64,000 nt of DNA, from assembly GCF_000021985.1 (NCBI RefSeq), contig NC_011901.1, positions 2,294,001-2,358,000 on the forward strand, given 5' to 3'. The notes under the pieces were generated by a model, which did no database searches, had not been told where the DNA came from, and saw only the letters and a list, made by a program, of their open reading frames with translations. The stretch's first letter is position 1; each line of letters starts with the position of its first letter. The position numbers were made by a program, and so were the translations under genes. Source of the DNA: Thioalkalivibrio sulfidiphilus HL-EbGr7 (GTDB lineage Bacteria; Pseudomonadota; Gammaproteobacteria; Ectothiorhodospirales; Ectothiorhodospiraceae). This document shows, one piece after another, positions 4,898 to 20,165 of the stretch.

Positions 4898-5161
4898 AGT
4901 GTCCTGAGTCAGAGATTCGTTGCATTTCAGAGCCCCGCACAAGACCCAAGGCAAGGCGCGGGCCGCAGGCAATGGCAAGCCCTTGGCAAGGACCGCAACG
5001 CCGCATTGGGTCTTGTGCGGAGCTCCCTGCGGGCGGGCCTGTACGGGCGCTCGGCCGCGTTGCTCTCGCTCGAATGGGCCTGCCCGTCCTTCGCTCGTGC
5101 GCCTTGCCGTGCATCCCGTACAGGCCCGCTGAAATGTAACGAATCTCTGACTCAGGACACT
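4898..5161. repeat. Palindromic element A (about 264 bp, cruciform type)
   Basis: Outer arms 4898-4930 and 5129-5161 are reverse complements with one mismatch in 33. Two internal hairpins lie between them: one with arms starting ccgcacaagaccc (about 4934) and ending gggtcttgtgcgg (about 5020), and one with ggcctgtacggg pairing with cccgtacaggcc (about 5036-5128). The first hairpin encloses a core with caaggcaaggcgcg and ggcaagcccttggcaagg. A second copy (17143-17411) keeps the termini and core but has different arm sequences that are still complementary. There is no coding capacity of note. The right terminus supplies the stop codon of the neighbouring 133-aa gene. Confidence 0.85.
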
Positions 5162-5561
5162 AGAGGCGATGCTCCTGTTCGCAGCGCGAATGCAGGTACA
5201 GGTAAACGTGCCGCAGGGTGTGCACCGCCATGCGCTGGGGGTTTTGCGGCAGGGCGTCGGCCCGGTCCATGGCCAGGCAGTTGCCGTAGTAGACCAGTTC
5301 GCGCACGTTGTCCCGCACGGCATTGAGGCTCGGATCGCCCTTCACGAAGGCCTTGAACACCTCCAGCAGGTCGTCGGTGTCCGGGATGGCCTTGCCGGCG
5401 TGCTCGGCATAGGCCGTGAGCAACCCCTTCATGATTCCGCCGGCCTCCCCGAGCAGATCGGCCAGATCGGGTGCCCCGTCCCCGCGCACGGCGGCCTCCA
5501 GGGCGCCGATACGCCGATCCAGTTCATCGAAGGCGGCGACAAGCCGGGCGTTGGGATCCAT
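5160..5561 (-). CDS. Hypothetical protein, 133 aa
   Basis: ATG at 5559-5561 is preceded by a good AGAGGA ribosome-binding site at 6-nt spacing. The product is a soluble, helical, acidic protein with no signal peptide or membrane segment and no motif I recognise; its C terminus carries YLYLHSRCEQEHRL. Its stop codon TAG (5160-5162) is formed by the conserved terminus of palindromic element A, so the element may have truncated or re-ended the gene. It is divergent from the 105-aa gene at 5672 across an AT-rich promoter region of 110 bp. A real gene judging from its ribosome-binding site and codon usage; function unknown. Confidence 0.65.
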   Translation of the reverse strand: MDPNARLVAAFDELDRRIGALEAAVRGDGAPDLADLLGEAGGIMKGLLTAYAEHAGKAIPDTDDLLEVFKAFVKGDPSLNAVRDNVRELVYYGNCLAMDRADALPQNPQRMAVHTLRHVYLYLHSRCEQEHRL

Positions 5562-14987: not shown

Positions 14988-15188
14988 ATGGACAAGAAGA
15001 CCTACTACGAAACCTCCAAGAAGATGGAAAGCGTGGGCGTCGACCCCGCCTACGTCATGGGATGGCAGACCGGCTTCATGCACAGCCCCAAGCTGGAAGA
15101 GCAGCGGGTCACCGATGCCTACGACGCCGGCTACAACGACGGCCTGCAAGGCAAGACCGACGGCTTCAGCAGCTGGACCAAGCAGTAA
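14988..15188 (+). CDS. Small hypothetical protein, 66 aa
   Basis: The ATG at 14988 has AGAGGAG upstream at about 8 nt. The product is MDKKTYYETSKKMESVG..., small and tyrosine-rich with a repeated Y-x-x-G-(W/Y)-x-x-G-(F/L) pattern (YVMGWQTGF, YDAGYNDGL). There is no membrane segment. It is probably co-transcribed with the TrpD-like gene and ends at a nested repeat-terminator. No family recognised. Confidence 0.7.
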   Translation: MDKKTYYETSKKMESVGVDPAYVMGWQTGFMHSPKLEEQRVTDAYDAGYNDGLQGKTDGFSSWTKQ

Positions 15189-15357: not shown

Positions 15358-15996
15358 TCAATCCTCCGCCATCGGCCGGACCGGCCCCTCCTTGCCCGGC
15401 CCGGCACGGTCGTCTGAACCCGCCAGCAGCGCGTCCAGGGACGCGGTGTACTTCTCCACCGCCTCGGGTCCCTCGATGGTCAGGATCTGATCGATGGCCC
15501 ATTCCCGGTTCTTCGGTCCCAGGGCATCACTGACCCAGTCGGCAAACGCGCGCATGAGCTTGAATCCGGGTCCCTCGATGGGGCTGTAACTGCATTCGGC
15601 ATAGACCGCGTTGCGGGCATTGAGCTTGTCGATGAAGATCCGCTTGAAGTCCGCCGGCGTCAGGTGCTGCAGGTCTTCCGGCGCCTTGTTGTCGGCCCGG
15701 TTCTCCTCCACGAAGCCGGCCAGGCGCAGGGCCATGGCAGTGATGAATTTTGCCCGCTCCTCCTCGTTGAACTTGCCGTAGACCTGGTGATCGGTGAGGT
15801 GCAGCAGGAAGACCACGAATTCCTCGATCACGTCCAGGCGCTGGTACTGGGTGCGGGTCTCGAATCCCTCGTTCTCCAGGCTGAGCACGCCATTGCAGGC
15901 CACCCGCCAGGCATTGGCGGCGCTCACCGTGGCCACATCCTCCAGGGTGCGGGCCCGCTCACCCTGTTTCCAGCGATTGCGCAGTCGCAGTGCCAT
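15358..15996 (-). CDS. Hypothetical protein, 212 aa
   Basis: The ATG at 15994-15996 overlaps the stop of the DUF3050 gene (TGATG), so the two are coupled. The protein is helical and cytosolic, with a run DVIEEFVVFLLHLTDHQVYGKF, LNARNAVYAECSYSP, and a polar, proline-rich tail. No motif is recognised. The coupling to a haem-oxygenase-like DUF3050 protein suggests a joint function, perhaps as a complex. Function unknown. Confidence 0.7.
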   Translation of the reverse strand: MALRLRNRWKQGERARTLEDVATVSAANAWRVACNGVLSLENEGFETRTQYQRLDVIEEFVVFLLHLTDHQVYGKFNEEERAKFITAMALRLAGFVEENRADNKAPEDLQHLTPADFKRIFIDKLNARNAVYAECSYSPIEGPGFKLMRAFADWVSDALGPKNREWAIDQILTIEGPEAVEKYTASLDALLAGSDDRAGPGKEGPVRPMAED

Positions 15997-16775
15997 CAGG
16001 AAATCTCCAGTCGCTTGGCCACATCGTCCCAGAAGCGGATGCGCGCCTCGATGGCCGCGCAGGCCGCCTGCTCCGCCTCGCGCCGCTTCTGCGCGTCACC
16101 GGCGCAGAGCATGTCCAGCATGCGCAGGGACAGGGGGCCGTGGAAGTCCTCATCCAGGTGGATGTGGCGTTTCAGGTAGAAGTGAAACATGGGGGCATCC
16201 TGCTCGGTGATGCCCATGCGGGCCAACAGGCTGCGGAACATGCCGGGGATCACGTGTTCGCGTCCCAGGGCCAGGGCCGCCGCGACCACATGGGGCTGGC
16301 CGCCGCTGATGAAGCCGAAGGTGCTCTCCATGAAGCGGCGTGACGGCTCGGGGGCGATGCCCGCGGCCAGCGCCGCGTCGATGCCCTCACGGGCGGCCAG
16401 GGCCACGAAGGCCTGGGGGCCGGAGGGATCCGCGCCCAGTTCACGCATGGCGCCGCAGTAGAGCTCGAAATGGCTCAGGCATATCTCCTCGCCGTCGGGC
16501 CCGGGGATCTTGTCGGACTCCTCTTCCAGCACCAGCTCGTTGATGAAGCGGCACACCGCCGCATCCGGACCCGGCGCCCAGGGATAGCGGGCCGGCGCGA
16601 TGTGGTGCTGGAGAAACTTGATCAGGGACATGAAATCCCACACCGAGTAGATGTGGCATTCCATGAAGCGACGCAGGTCGTCGAGGTCCCGCAGGCCGTA
16701 GACGGGATGCTGGTCGAGGCGCTCGCGCAGGGGCGCGATGATGCGGGGATCGAATGCGGGGGGCGGGTTGGACAT
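15996..16775 (-). CDS. DUF3050 family protein (haem-oxygenase-like fold)
   Basis: 259 aa from the ATG at 16773-16775. DUF3050 hallmarks are present: LDQHPVYGLRDLDDLRRFMECHIYSVWDFMSLIK near the N terminus, NELVLEEESDK, LSHFELYCGAM, and FYLKRHIHLDEDFHGP late in the sequence. The conserved His/Glu residues (HIYSVWDF, EEESD, HLDEDFH) suggest a diiron or haem-oxygenase-like helical bundle. The biochemical role of the family is not established. It is translationally coupled to the following 212-aa gene. Upstream lie two GC-rich hairpins (16818-16889). Confidence 0.8.
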   Translation of the reverse strand: MSNPPPAFDPRIIAPLRERLDQHPVYGLRDLDDLRRFMECHIYSVWDFMSLIKFLQHHIAPARYPWAPGPDAAVCRFINELVLEEESDKIPGPDGEEICLSHFELYCGAMRELGADPSGPQAFVALAAREGIDAALAAGIAPEPSRRFMESTFGFISGGQPHVVAAALALGREHVIPGMFRSLLARMGITEQDAPMFHFYLKRHIHLDEDFHGPLSLRMLDMLCAGDAQKRREAEQAACAAIEARIRFWDDVAKRLEIS

Positions 16776-16817
16776 GGATGATGTCTCTGGCTTGGGAACA
16801 CCCGGCATCATACAGAA

Positions 16818-16894: not shown

Positions 16895-17098
16895 TCAACG
16901 ATGGGAGCCCTTTTCCGCGTGGGCGATGTCCACCAGCTGCATGGCGATATCGCGGTACTTCTGGCGGTACTGATGCAGGGGATGGCCCTCGGGGGCCAGG
17001 TAGTACTCCTCGGGGGAGACGCCGTTGGCATGTTCATATTCCATGAACATCTTCTGCATCTCGAGCATTTCCTTGATCAGTTCCTGCTTGTTGCTCAT
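16895..17098 (-). CDS. Small hypothetical protein, 67 aa
   Basis: The ATG at 17096-17098 has a canonical GGAGG site about 10 nt upstream; the longer open frame would run into palindromic element B and is rejected. The product starts MSNKQELIKEMLEMQKMFMEY, an amphipathic helix rich in Met and Glu, followed by SPEEYYLAPEGHPLHQYRQKY. It is acidic and soluble. No family recognised. It lies just downstream of palindromic element B on the same strand as the RspA-Cas6-TauD cassette. Confidence 0.75.
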   Translation of the reverse strand: MSNKQELIKEMLEMQKMFMEYEHANGVSPEEYYLAPEGHPLHQYRQKYRDIAMQLVDIAHAEKGSHR

Positions 17099-17142: not shown

Positions 17143-17411
17143 CTAGTGTCCTGTCTGACAAATATCTTGCCATTCAGCGTGGCTGTGTGGGCGTGTGGCT
17201 AGGCACGCTTGCGCAGGAATGGCCACCCCCATTTCAAGCAAGCGTAACAACGCCACATGCCCACACAGCCGCGCCCGCAGGGAGCCTCGCAAAAGCGCCA
17301 ATGCGGCGTTGCGCACCTTGCCAAGGGCTTGCCATTGGCTGCGCTGCGCGCCTTGCCTTGGCGCTTTTGCGAGGCTCTGAATGACAAGATATTTGTCAGA
17401 CAGGACACTAG
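17143..17411. repeat. Palindromic element B (about 269 bp, cruciform type)
   Basis: Outer arms 17143-17177 and 17377-17411 begin ctagtgtcctg and are reverse complements with one mismatch in 35. Read on the minus strand it aligns with element A: both have the tagtgtcctg terminus, a first hairpin enclosing caaggcaaggcgcg and ggcaagcccttggcaagg, ctccctgcgggcg, and a second hairpin. The paired arms differ in sequence from A (ctcgcaaaagcgcc rather than ccgcacaagaccc; ggctgtgtgggc rather than ggcctgtacggg) but remain complementary. Confidence 0.85.
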
Positions 17412-17563: not shown

Positions 17564-17905
17564 TTAATAGCCGCCCTTGCGGCGGCTCTCCGGCAGGCCG
17601 GAGACGCGGCCGCCCTGCTTGCTGGGGTCCAGGGGGAACAGGTCGTAGAGGGTCTTGGCATCCACGCTCTTGTCGTCCCACTTGGCCGACATCGCCTTGA
17701 CGATGGTCCGGGTGTTGGGCTGATTCTCGTTGTTGTTGATGTATTCGTCACGCAGGTAGTTGATCAGGTCCCAGTGCCGATCGGTCAGCTCGATGCCTTC
17801 CTTCGCGGCAATGGCCTTGGCCACGTTCTCGCTCCAGTCGGATATGTTTTCCAGGTAGCCGTTGGCATTGGTTGCAATGGTGACGCCATCCACTTCCAGA
17901 CTCAT
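17564..17905 (-). CDS. rspA: DsrC/TusE-family protein lacking both C-terminal cysteines (RspA-like)
   Basis: 113 aa from the ATG at 17903-17905 with a GGAGG site. It aligns along its length with DsrC (compare 23901-24233): MSLEVDG..., ANGYLENISDWSENVAKAIAA, LTDRHWDLINYLRDEY, TLYDLFPLDPSKQGG. The two redox cysteines of DsrC's C-terminal arm are absent: the tail reads KQGGRVSGLPESRRKGGY. Members without these cysteines cannot carry a trisulfide and have been proposed to be regulatory (RspA). It is the last gene of a four-gene cassette divergent from dsrA. It could compete with DsrC for partners, or bind DNA or RNA. Confidence 0.85.
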   Translation of the reverse strand: MSLEVDGVTIATNANGYLENISDWSENVAKAIAAKEGIELTDRHWDLINYLRDEYINNNENQPNTRTIVKAMSAKWDDKSVDAKTLYDLFPLDPSKQGGRVSGLPESRRKGGY

Positions 17906-17949
17906 TGAGCCATCCTCCGTCTCGTTGCTGTTGATGATGTGGTGATGTT

Positions 17950-18639
17950 TCAACTCTCGCCCGGTACGCGTTGTACCGGCGCGACGTCCTTGTGACCGAT
18001 GAACAGGCCGCAGCCCATCAGCCGCATCGGTCCGAGACCCTGACGCTGCAGCTCCACCGAGCCGTGGGGATCCAGGTCCGCCACCATCAGGCTTCGGGTA
18101 TGCACCTCGCCATCGGGGGTGCGCAGCACGTGTTCACGGCCGCACAGGAGCTTGGTGACCGGCACACCCAGTTCCCGCAGTGCCCCGGCCGCCCGGGCCA
18201 GGAAATCCGCCTCCGCCTCGTCGGGGGTGGAGACCACATAGCGCGCCATGAGCGCCGGCAAGGGCTGCAGGGGCAGGACACCGGCCTCGCCGATGAGCAG
18301 TTCATGGCCCTCCAGTCGCAGGGCCTGACCCACCAGGGCCCGGGCGTCCTCCAGCCGGGTGCGGGGCACGCGCAGGCGGAAGCGGGCACGCCGGGACAGG
18401 TGCAGCAGGTCGTGCTCCGGGTCCTGGGGCCGGTACCAGCCGTTGCCGGATTCCGCCCCGTGGATCAGGTGCACGCCGGCGGCGGGTTCCTCGCTCATCC
18501 ACGGCAGGGCCGCAAGCACTGCGCTGGACAGGGCGTGGGCGTGGTCCAGGGGCAGGCAGCGACAGTCGATGCGGTAGGACACATCGATGATGTCATCGGG
18601 CAGATGGGGGTCGATCTCGGTGTCGTCGTCCCAGAACAT
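17950..18639 (-). CDS. Cas6/Cmx6-like RAMP-fold protein (no CRISPR array nearby)
   Basis: 229 aa from the ATG at 18637-18639 with a GAGGA site. The sequence follows the Cas6/Cmx6 (I-MYXAN) pattern: VSYRIDCRCLPLDHAHALSSAV, LPWMSEEP, GVHLIHGAESGNGWYRP, LHLSRRARFRLRVP, LEGHELLIGE, CGREHVL, and the glycine-rich end GLGPMRLMGCGLFIGHK, which is the RAMP G-loop. Cas6 proteins cut repeat RNA. No CRISPR repeat, spacer array or other cas gene is in the window. It is packed between the RspA-like gene (44 nt) and a 63-aa gene (13 nt), which argues for a sulfur-linked RNA-processing or RNA-binding role. His residues in DHAHAL might be catalytic; this is untested. Confidence 0.75.
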   Translation of the reverse strand: MFWDDDTEIDPHLPDDIIDVSYRIDCRCLPLDHAHALSSAVLAALPWMSEEPAAGVHLIHGAESGNGWYRPQDPEHDLLHLSRRARFRLRVPRTRLEDARALVGQALRLEGHELLIGEAGVLPLQPLPALMARYVVSTPDEAEADFLARAAGALRELGVPVTKLLCGREHVLRTPDGEVHTRSLMVADLDPHGSVELQRQGLGPMRLMGCGLFIGHKDVAPVQRVPGES

Positions 18640-18652
18640 GGCCTGGCGATCC

Positions 18653-18844
18653 TCAGGACATGGGCGAGGTGAAGGTGGCCTCGACCCGCTCCTCCCAGTC
18701 CGGCGGGGTATCCGGGAACGGGGGCTTGACGTCGGAGCTGAGGAACCGCTCCCCTGCCCTTGCGCGCTCGCGCACCAGTTCCAGCATCTCCTCGAAGGAC
18801 TGCAGGTCCTGGTTCTGCATCAGCAGCTCACTCAACCACAGCAT
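18653..18844 (-). CDS. Small hypothetical protein, 63 aa, in the RspA-Cas6-TauD cassette
   Basis: The ATG at 18842-18844 follows GAGGAG at 7 nt; the longer frame upstream overlaps the TauD gene and is rejected. The product starts MLWLSELLMQNQDLQSFEEM and ends in a proline-rich acidic tail (PPFPDTPPDWEERVEATF). It is likely an amphipathic helix plus an extended tail, an adapter-like layout. The gaps to its neighbours are 13 and 17 nt, so it belongs to the same operon. No family recognised. Confidence 0.75.
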   Translation of the reverse strand: MLWLSELLMQNQDLQSFEEMLELVRERARAGERFLSSDVKPPFPDTPPDWEERVEATFTSPMS

Positions 18845-18861
18845 GGGGACTCCTCGGGGTT

Positions 18862-19863
18862 TCAGGTCCCGGCCACCCGGTCCAGGTAGCGGGCACGGTA
18901 GATCAGTCTTGTCTGGCCGGCCTGCGGGTCGTCGCGAAAGCCGGTGCGGTTGTGCAACACGTTGTTGCACAGGATGCCCTCCCCGGGGGAGAGACGGTGG
19001 CGGATGATGCCCGGCATGTCGGAGGCGAGCAATTCCCGGATGCGGGCTGCCGCCTCGCGGGTCAGGGGGTCATCACGCCAGTGCACGTTGCGTTCCCGGG
19101 CGGTGTAGCGCAGGTGCAGCCGGCCGGTCTCCGGGTCCACACTGAACACCGGGCCGGACTGGGCCTCCCGCAGCACCACGCCGTTCTCCACGTTCTCCGG
19201 GATGGTCATGGCCTGCGGGTGCATCAGGGCCTCGATCCAGCCGGGATTCTCGTCGCGCAGGCGGATGTACAGCAGCTCATGATCCAGCAGGGCGTTCTCG
19301 CCACCCTCGGCCGCGTCCGTGACGCAGTGCAGCAACATGGCCCGGATGCGCCGCTCGGGGGGGTTGTAGTAGCCGTCGCAATGCCAGCTGAGCGGCCGGT
19401 TGGTGTAGGGGATGTAGTCTGCCTGGCGCCCGCCGGCGCTCACCTGCAGCTCGCTGACCCCGTCCTCCTCGCTGCACAGGTTGCTGTCCAGGCGCGACAG
19501 GCCCAGGGCCAGGCCGAAGGTCCGCACCGTGGCCCGGTCCACGCCGCCTGCTGCACTGCGGTAGAGGACCAGGTTGTGCTGCCGGAGATGGGCGGTCAGG
19601 GCCGCGCATTCCTCGGCGCTGGGCCGCGCCAGATCACCCACTTCCACGCGCAAGGCCTCGATGGATTCGGGCTGGCGGGCGAGTTTGCCCTCGCGCCAGG
19701 CCCGGTAGGCCGGCACAGCGCCCAGATCGAAGGCGCGGGCATCCCGGTGCCCGTGCGTCGCGGGACCGGAGTGGTCAATCACGCTGGATGACTGTCGTGC
19801 TGTCATGACTGGTGTTTTCAACGCCTGGCGAAGAATTGATGAAGCAGTGTAATGGTGCGACAC
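18862..19863 (-). CDS. TauD/TfdA-type Fe(II)/2-oxoglutarate dioxygenase
   Basis: 333 aa if started at the GTG 19861-19863 (GGAAGG site upstream); an ATG at 19804-19806 would give 314 aa. The catalytic facial triad is visible: HxD in SWHCDGYYNP, distal His in CNNVLHNRTGF, and the 2-oxoglutarate-binding Arg in RLIYRARYL. N-terminal substrate-side motifs such as LGLSRLDSNLCSE resemble the TauD/gamma-butyrobetaine hydroxylase group. Such enzymes hydroxylate or desulfonate small molecules or modify side chains. It heads the cassette that also encodes the Cas6-like and RspA-like proteins and shares a divergent promoter region with dsrA. Substrate unknown. Confidence 0.85.
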   Translation of the reverse strand: MSHHYTASSILRQALKTPVMTARQSSSVIDHSGPATHGHRDARAFDLGAVPAYRAWREGKLARQPESIEALRVEVGDLARPSAEECAALTAHLRQHNLVLYRSAAGGVDRATVRTFGLALGLSRLDSNLCSEEDGVSELQVSAGGRQADYIPYTNRPLSWHCDGYYNPPERRIRAMLLHCVTDAAEGGENALLDHELLYIRLRDENPGWIEALMHPQAMTIPENVENGVVLREAQSGPVFSVDPETGRLHLRYTARERNVHWRDDPLTREAAARIRELLASDMPGIIRHRLSPGEGILCNNVLHNRTGFRDDPQAGQTRLIYRARYLDRVAGT

Positions 19864-20165
19864 GGCAGCACAACCTTCCTTCCGGGATAGGCCGGGACAG
19901 GGGCCGCCGGGGCGCTGTTCGCGGCCCCGTTCCTGTCTCTATCCCCAGTGGGATATGCCCGGGTAGGGATCCCCCCCCATGAGTAGGGTGTTCTCCCCGG
20001 GCGGCCGGTCCTAGAGTCTACCGCAGCAAAAAGAACCATCTGGGTCCCGGCTTGCCGTCAGACCCCGACCAAAACCAGGACCGGGACGTAGCCGCGGCGC
20101 AGTTCCCAGGCACCCAAGGCAGACGCACACGGTCCCACGTCCCCAGACCCGAGAAGGAGACTGTC
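19864..20165 (+). promoter_or_regulatory. Divergent TauD-dsrA promoter region with candidate NarL-like motifs
   Basis: This 302-bp gap between divergent operons must contain the main dsr promoter. It holds the small palindrome tatccccagtgggata (19939-19954), direct repeats gggtaggg (19961-19968) and gagtaggg (19981-19988) spaced by about two helical turns, and atgagta (19979-19985), whose complement tactcat fits the NarL heptamer TACYYMT. The dsrA ribosome-binding site gaaggaga is at 20152-20160. The operator assignment is inference. Confidence 0.45.

Follow-up and report, generated by a model that had tools for sequence, protein, structure and literature searches.

A 64,000-nucleotide stretch of the genome of Thioalkalivibrio sulfidiphilus HL-EbGr7 (NC_011901.1, positions 2,294,001 to 2,358,000; hereafter the window, with positions counted from its first letter) carries, divergent from dsrA, a compact cassette of genes encoding a Cas6-like repeat-associated mysterious protein (RAMP), a cysteine-free paralogue of DsrC (DsrC'), a 63-residue protein and a TauD-type Fe(II)/2-oxoglutarate (2OG) dioxygenase. 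The host genome is a single contig of 3.46 Mb. When open reading frames (ORFs) and strands were rechecked, the four genes proposed in a preliminary description of this DNA were found as claimed on the minus strand, separated by gaps of 17, 13 and 44 nt, and dsrA was found to begin on the opposite strand. The features of the cassette and its divergent neighbour are as follows.

17950..18639, minus strand: Cas6-like (Cmx6-type) RAMP protein of 229 aa, the core of the finding
18541..18543, minus strand: codon of His33, the putative catalytic histidine, in an LPxDH motif before helix 1
17564..17905 (ATG), minus strand: DsrC', a DsrC-family protein of 113 aa without redox cysteines, with RKGGY at its C-terminus
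18653..18844, minus strand: 63-aa small protein (sml), with no family above cut-off
18862..19806 (ATG) or to 19863 (GTG, ORF start), minus strand: TauD-type Fe(II)/2OG dioxygenase
19864..20165, no strand: divergent intergenic region from cassette to dsrA, with recurring dyads in homologous regions
19940..19955, no strand: palindrome TATCCCNNNNGGGATA, a probable regulator site common to dsrA and the cassette
20166 (ATG)..21431, plus strand: dsrA, the divergent neighbour (TIGR02064, 624.6 bits; cut-off 392.85)

Eight proteins around the site within the window were scanned against Pfam and NCBIfam, DsrC' being represented in these scans and in searches by 17564-17911, two codons beyond its ATG start. 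Family models and predicted structure together identify the RAMP gene as a true Cas6 homologue. Its product exceeds the cut-offs of both Pfam PF09559 (Cas6; 2e-63, 214.3 bits against 26.7) and NCBIfam TIGR02807 (cas6_cmx6; 125.4 bits against 98.85), and TIGR02807 is matched at E 0.001 or better by all 59 members of an alignment of the family (A2), across which the four glycines of the C-terminal loop (Gly 201, 203, 209 and 211) are invariant; the Cas6/Cmx6 pattern with a terminal glycine-rich loop, as originally described, is therefore upheld. A strain named Thioalkalivibrio sulfidiphilus, ALJ17, encodes the protein at 97% identity. An AlphaFold2 model (predicted local distance difference test, pLDDT, 89.2) aligns in VIA with chain 8fcu_B, the Cas6 of a type I-B CRISPR (clustered regularly interspaced short palindromic repeats)-associated transposon (CAST), at Z 24.1 and a root-mean-square deviation of 2.2 over 196 residues, then with 5yi6 (Z 16.4) and further Cas6 chains at Z of about 8 to 16; Foldseek returns a Cas6 match at 4e-16. 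The preliminary description had allowed that modelling might find no structural match to Cas6, a prospect that these alignments remove.

Residues of interest lie outside the loop as well. His33 is present in 103 of 104 Cas6-like sequences from the fetched loci, and from its place in the fold it is a putative catalytic general base; the LPxDH motif that contains it also occurs in the three CRISPR-linked cyanobacterial Cmx6 proteins aligned, all of which keep the histidine. The main branch of Cas6-like proteins carries in addition a highly conserved insertion, HGAESGNGWxRP, which is missing from the aligned CRISPR-linked Cmx6 proteins, from the I-B CAST Cas6 and from a distant branch of the family. 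At its centre (residues 64-67) the insertion forms one of the model's two stretches with pLDDT <50, as expected for a loop that becomes ordered on binding. A midpoint-rooted tree of 49 rows, several of them on long branches, places four cyanobacterial plasmid forms apart from all dsr-linked sequences (support 99/96). In viral contigs neither the Cas6-like protein nor DsrC' had a confirmed relative, and phages gave no tblastn match to the Cas6-like protein. On one cyanobacterial plasmid, pGMOR1 of Gloeobacter morelensis (L135), a Cmx6-named gene has as neighbours genes for a PAPS-reductase-family protein, a cupin and hypothetical proteins, and the annotation shows no further cas gene within 6 kb; this is perhaps another non-CRISPR Cas6.

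The Cas6-like protein is a member of the Cas6 family and not of a CRISPR system. As first noted for this DNA, there is no array at the locus (a repeat scan of the window gave none of CRISPR type) and no other cas gene, the Cas6-like protein being the one Cas protein among the eight scanned. Repeat signals appeared in two of 108 related loci, both plain tandem repeats. The neighbours by which type I-MYXAN is recognized (cas3, cas8, cas7, cas5 and cas1, with a nearby array) do not accompany the gene here; L136-L138 provided contrast loci for neighbouring cas genes. Elsewhere in the genome are two cas1 loci accompanied by repeat arrays, the nearer 266 kb away. The type I-G locus encodes a Cas5-Cas6 fusion, and the type III-B locus (L006:17251-19326; C1:1917250-1919325) a 691-aa protein in which a borderline Cas6 domain (25.5 bits in one scan, 23.3 in another; cut-off 25) is fused to Cas1. 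Since both CRISPR loci have a Cas6 of their own, neither appears to need the Cas6-like protein.

What the gene does accompany is dsrA. We sampled 369 genomes of the class (Gammaproteobacteria, broadly defined), with dsrA scored as present at E 1e-30 or better, and found the Cas6-like family in 118, with one match in each save G264, where two lie side by side on one contig. Both genes occur in 111 genomes, the Cas6-like gene only in 7, dsrA only in 8 and neither in 243 (Fisher p 7e-75, a value that ignores kinship and so overstates certainty). The corresponding counts for the Cas6-like gene and cas1 in the same sample, 51, 67, 85 and 166, reveal no detectable link (p 0.084), cas1 not being found in 67 of the 118 carriers. 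Assembly edges account for many of the misses. Each of the seven contigs from genomes with the Cas6-like gene only was fetched: in five the sequence runs out within the cassette or no more than about 0.4 kb past TauD, L123 holds a piece of dsrA, and L119 has 2.3 kb upstream without dsrA. Four of the eight genomes with dsrA only were inspected (G079, G110, G211 and G238 being left out), and in three of these (L143, L144 and L145) the contig breaks off within the cassette or directly next to dsrA, with TauD and the small protein still present on L144. More weight than the Fisher value is due to covariation within families and to a second sample. In family f33 both genes are present in G032 and G177 and neither in G284; in f134 both are present in G247 and G343 and neither in G134. 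In a phylum sample of 398 genomes, the five in-class genomes with dsrA are the same five that have the Cas6-like gene (the window's genome is included in both samples). Distance matrices for the Cas6-like protein and DsrA are correlated (r 0.78, n=62; 0 of 500 permutations as high). A Cas6-family RAMP protein that lies outside CRISPR loci is, in this class, a near-constant companion of dsrAB.

The arrangement of the locus was compared in 80 named loci, the best of 439 relatives; because these are the closest ones, the shares given here lean high, and each is expressed over the loci "with room", whose sequence reaches far enough for the gene in question. The cassette faces dsrA on the opposite strand in 57 of 63 loci and on the same strand in none. 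The 63-aa protein is present in 74 of 76, TauD in 60 of 67 and DsrC' in 62 of 70. A distant branch (L139-L142), 28-39% identical to the window, has the order dsrA< Cas6-like> DsrC'> Y> TauD>, where Y is a helical protein described below, and three genomes of 1.0-1.1 Mb retain the cassette beside dsrA. In four genomes where the Cas6-like gene lies away from dsr (G109, G325, G226 and G097), TauD and a DsrC' match reaching the last residue are still encoded. The survey of neighbourhoods proposed at the outset accordingly places homologues beside dsr and not beside CRISPR arrays, and the linkage to a DsrC-like protein and TauD is conserved among relatives: the Cas6-like gene is usually encoded with a cysteine-free DsrC paralogue, divergent from dsrA.

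Outside the class, 20 dsrA loci were examined from 19 of 48 genomes that have dsrA without the Cas6-like gene. Five of these loci are linked dsrABEFHCM operons, in four of which (L153, L155-L157) TauD and the small protein are divergent from dsrA, an arrangement that, as read from the sequences, is a second form of the cassette. Because TauD and the 63-aa protein are here linked to dsr without the Cas6-like gene, the four genes do not form a single inseparable machine; TauD and the small protein appear to be older companions of dsr, to which the Cas6-like and DsrC' genes were added in this class. Reading by ORF showed a different protein of ~70 aa next after TauD and the small protein in L153, L155 and L156, followed in L155 and L156 by an apparent siroheme-synthase-like ORF, so named by inspection of its sequence and not by family search.

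DsrC' is, as proposed, a protein of the DsrC fold family without either redox cysteine. It matches Pfam PF04358 (1.8e-33, 115.6 bits against a cut-off of 24.9) and NCBIfam TIGR03342, and the copy in the window has no cysteine at all. Among 85 complete homologues all end in GGY (81 in RKGGY); cysteine is absent altogether from 83, and in no case do the last 25 residues contain two, whereas all 58 true DsrC proteins in the fetched loci end in PTGCV or PTGCI with both redox cysteines present. The invariance of the GGY tail points to a specific contact rather than decay. We take such paralogues to be those that go by the name RspA, as in the preliminary description; a literature search under that name gave nothing relevant. 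A further paralogue deserves mention as background. As far as the available text of PMC11267869 goes, Alvin_1508 of A. vinosum falls about 7-8-fold on pyrite, alongside dsrAB; it may or may not be DsrC' and is not used here as evidence.

The TauD protein has the expected character of an Fe(II)/2OG dioxygenase: it matches Pfam PF02668 (7.1e-23), and sequence motifs for the iron triad (HxD...H) and the 2OG arginine are evident, WHxDG being kept in 78 of 84 complete homologues and the distal His and Arg motifs in 82 each. It falls below every NCBIfam equivalog cut-off that it touches, and TmpA (6npb, 5e-8) is the only solved relative found. For the 63-aa protein the sole Pfam hint is Arc (E 0.065, below cut-off).

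The four-gene unit of the preliminary description consists of real genes, yet it was drawn too short, for two further minus-strand genes, encoding y67 and Y, belong to the recurring set. These and other neighbours are listed below.

16895..17098, minus strand: y67, a conserved 67-aa small protein and the next gene of the unit
15358..15996, minus strand: Y, a 212-aa all-helical protein, present in the distant branch too
15996..16811, minus strand: DUF3050 protein, belonging to the Thioalkalivibrio form of the cluster (PF11251, 1.4e-83)
14988..15188, plus strand: V68-family 66-aa small protein, accompanying the cluster at its far end

Of named loci with room, 50 of 67 have y67 and 39 of 49 have Y. 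No family was found for Y in Pfam, NCBIfam or PADLOC. Its model (pLDDT 88.6) comprises six helices, for which Foldseek gave nothing below 0.08; the best VIA row, the Cbp3 homologue 6rwt at Z 8.4, is inside the usual chance range for helical models, and a profile search of the PDB gave a hint to PAP12 at 0.037. The DUF3050 gene (product scanned for families as 15996-16805) lies in the gene cluster of nine loci, the window included, and DUF3050 is present in Thioalkalivibrio loci. Homologues of V68 occur in 28 of 97 loci, including positions near the cassette in the three 1.0-1.1 Mb genomes. The V68 protein carries a GWQxGF...EEQR...AYxAGYxDG pattern, which we take to be reminiscent of ribosome modulation factor; a V68 homologue had no Pfam match above cut-off. 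Beyond the cassette, near dsr, genes for two further Fe(II)/2OG oxygenase families (one of PKHD type and a second PF13640 type), a GNAT protein and DUF6866 proteins recur in L038-L117. Between the DsrC' gene and that of the 67-aa protein lies a 269-bp element (17143-17411) with 35-nt terminal inverted repeats (97%), of which the genome has 12 near-full-length copies, itself counted, at 73-100% identity, one of them near 4898-5163 of the window; by its sequence it represents a family resembling miniature inverted-repeat transposable elements.

The divergent region suggests that dsrA and the cassette have a regulator in common. A TATC-N8-GATA dyad occurs in 34 of 67 homologous divergent regions and a CCCA-N4-TAGG dyad in 35 of 67; in a single mononucleotide shuffle used as control the most frequent dyad reached 7, and the regions being related, the counts are not independent. 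The palindrome TATCCCNNNNGGGATA is the single exact site of its kind in the whole genome and is situated between cassette and dsrA. Together the recurring dyads and this unique site suggest one regulator for both transcription units. Searches of the gap between the Cas6-like and DsrC' genes found no sequence motif; the recurrent words were all AT-rich and present in no more than 8 of 69 gaps.

Candidate RNA substrates were sought among the dsr transcripts, where stems were scored at -15 kcal/mol or stronger within 46 nt. Across L038-L152 such stems follow dsrC in 50 of 58 dsrC-dsrM gaps and dsrA in 41 of 68 dsrA-dsrB gaps. A run of five T is found in 12 of the 50 stem-bearing dsrC-dsrM gaps and is lacking in the other 38, so most of the stems are not classical terminators; it is possible that they are transcript-stability elements independent of the Cas6-like gene. 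No Rfam family reached its gathering score in positions 13000-36000 of the window.

Comparison with known systems sets the cassette apart at each of its parts. The Cas6-like protein has its family, fold and glycine-rich loop in common with Cas6/Cmx6 of type I-MYXAN and with I-B CAST Cas6 (8fcj, 8fcu), and its LPxDH motif with CRISPR-linked Cmx6; it differs in being linked to dsrA, in a locus where no cas genes or array were found, and in the extra HGAESGNGWxRP of its main branch. DsrC' is of the same fold family as DsrC and TusE (PF04358, TIGR03342), and its best solved relative, 1yx3, is named DsrC; unlike DsrC, it has neither C-terminal redox cysteine, and GGY stands in place of GC(V/I). The cassette TauD shares PF02668, the iron and 2OG motifs and the relative TmpA (6npb) with TauD/TmpA-type dioxygenases, but lies below the NCBIfam equivalog cut-offs. 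DsrR and DsrS are, like the cassette, accessory factors of reverse Dsr, and the available text of PMC11406059 reports DsrR in the regulation of sulfur oxidation. DsrR further resembles DsrC' in being, to go by the title of a cited paper, a relative of a metal protein without the binding function. The cassette nevertheless comprises other families, in a divergent operon outside dsrABEFHCMKLJOPNRS. Within the open-access full-text literature, judged by titles and the openings of abstracts, no account was found of Cmx6 or Cas6 linked to dsr. That this is an undescribed dsr-linked cassette with a Cas6/Cmx6-type RAMP protein, as first put forward, is well supported by linkage, family and model; the assignment to the family, the absence of CRISPR context and the linkage to dsr are all far more certain than the mechanism.

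As to mechanism, the reading we favour, with a little short of an even chance of being right, is that an exapted Cas6 acts on cellular RNA on behalf of reverse Dsr, with DsrC' as its docking or sensing partner. The Cas6-like protein would bind one specific cellular RNA and would probably cut it in the metal-independent way of Cas6, and this action would tune synthesis of the reverse-Dsr sulfur oxidation machinery. DsrC' would serve as the sensing or docking partner, resembling DsrC to the binding partners of DsrC while unable to carry sulfur, and its invariant GGY tail would make a fixed contact. TauD and the 63-aa protein would be the earlier companions of dsr, joined later by the Cas6-like and DsrC' genes, and may feed oxygen or 2OG status into the same control. 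That the exapted Cas6 endoribonuclease and its sulfur-dead DsrC mimic amount to a device dedicated to RNA-level control or RNA maturation for reverse Dsr is a proposal we make tentatively.

Several observations weigh against this reading or limit it. The RNA target is hypothetical, and cleavage, binding and partner contacts are putative. The roles raised in the preliminary description, regulation of dsr mRNA, cutting of RNA and modification of a sulfur-related target, are hypothetical too. His33 is lost in L142, and an Asn occupies its position in the solved I-B CAST Cas6. The linkage has exceptions: six of the 63 named loci with room have no dsrA (L041, which has dsrEFH in that place, and L089, L111, L115, L116 and L117), in L146 (G355) the 1.7 kb upstream of dsrA contains no cassette, and G061, which has the Cas6-like gene, gave no TauD and no DsrC-family match ending in GGY. 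Both the Fisher value and the distance-matrix correlation partly reflect shared species history. Outside the class the Cas6-like gene is absent from 48 of 48 dsrA genomes (in which oxidative and other types of dsrA were not distinguished), so Dsr as such does not depend on it, and it is a lineage-specific addition. Finally, stems occur in 4 of 5 dsrC-dsrM and 7 of 20 dsrA-dsrB gaps of loci without the Cas6-like gene, and L125-L127 and L142 carry the gene with no stem after dsrC; for these reasons the simplest mRNA version of the proposal, cutting by Cas6 of the hairpins that separate dsr genes, is not favoured.

Alternative roles were weighed against the same evidence. One is work on tRNA or rRNA, in which the Cas6-like protein would hold the RNA, DsrC' would be a sulfur-free, TusE-like dock, and the oxygenase would modify RNA or a ribosomal protein. 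TusE is, in the available text of PMC3397948, the tRNA-thiolation branch of the DsrC family; the match of DsrC' to TIGR03342 accords with this, and a Cas6 fold, an oxygenase and a TusE-like protein together would suit RNA modification. The phyletic pattern nevertheless tracks dsrA, and DsrC' is without the sulfur-carrying cysteine pair, and we regard this role as unlikely. No less doubtful is a Cas6 fold that has ceased to handle RNA and acts with DsrC', TauD and Y in the maturation of Dsr proteins, as a scaffold or chaperone. Such a protein might well have a partner-binding loop like HGAESGNGWxRP, which is absent from CRISPR-linked Cmx6 and CAST Cas6 and has a low-certainty centre, and the chance-level resemblance of Y to a Cbp3 homologue would be in keeping; yet the insertion is missing in the distant branch, and conservation of the glycine-rich loop, several arginines and His33 is hard to explain without RNA.

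Cutting of the dsrA-dsrB and dsrC-dsrM hairpins by the Cas6-like protein, setting transcript ratios and the excess of dsrC, drew support from the abundance of stems in those gaps and from A. vinosum, in which dsrEFH and dsrC transcripts exceed dsrA on sulfide (PMC3397948, in the text available). This substrate is now improbable: such stems also occur in operons without the gene, L125-L127 carry the gene and have none after dsrC, the two stems of one genome look dissimilar where compared by eye, and the accessible part of PMC3368242 reports that dsrC has its own promoter in A. vinosum. Least credible of all, despite the two cas1 loci with arrays in the genome, is a stray Cas6 maturing CRISPR RNA in trans, which is disfavoured by the Cas6 fusions at those loci (the type III-B one on a borderline score) and by the many carriers in which cas1 was not found.

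The NCBI model name "type I-MYXAN CRISPR-associated protein Cas6/Cmx6" hides a gene that is, in the sampled genomes, nearly as constant as dsrA and is retained even in genomes of 1 Mb; Cas6 calls in sulfur oxidisers are not, alone, evidence of CRISPR. The cassette offers a concrete, testable way into the control of reverse Dsr and an example of a family of CRISPR ribonucleases taken into use next to core metabolism, and it suggests that an important energy pathway has an RNA-linked accessory not previously described. If the reading is true, an enzyme of CRISPR RNA processing would have become a permanent component of energy metabolism, acting on a novel RNA substrate.

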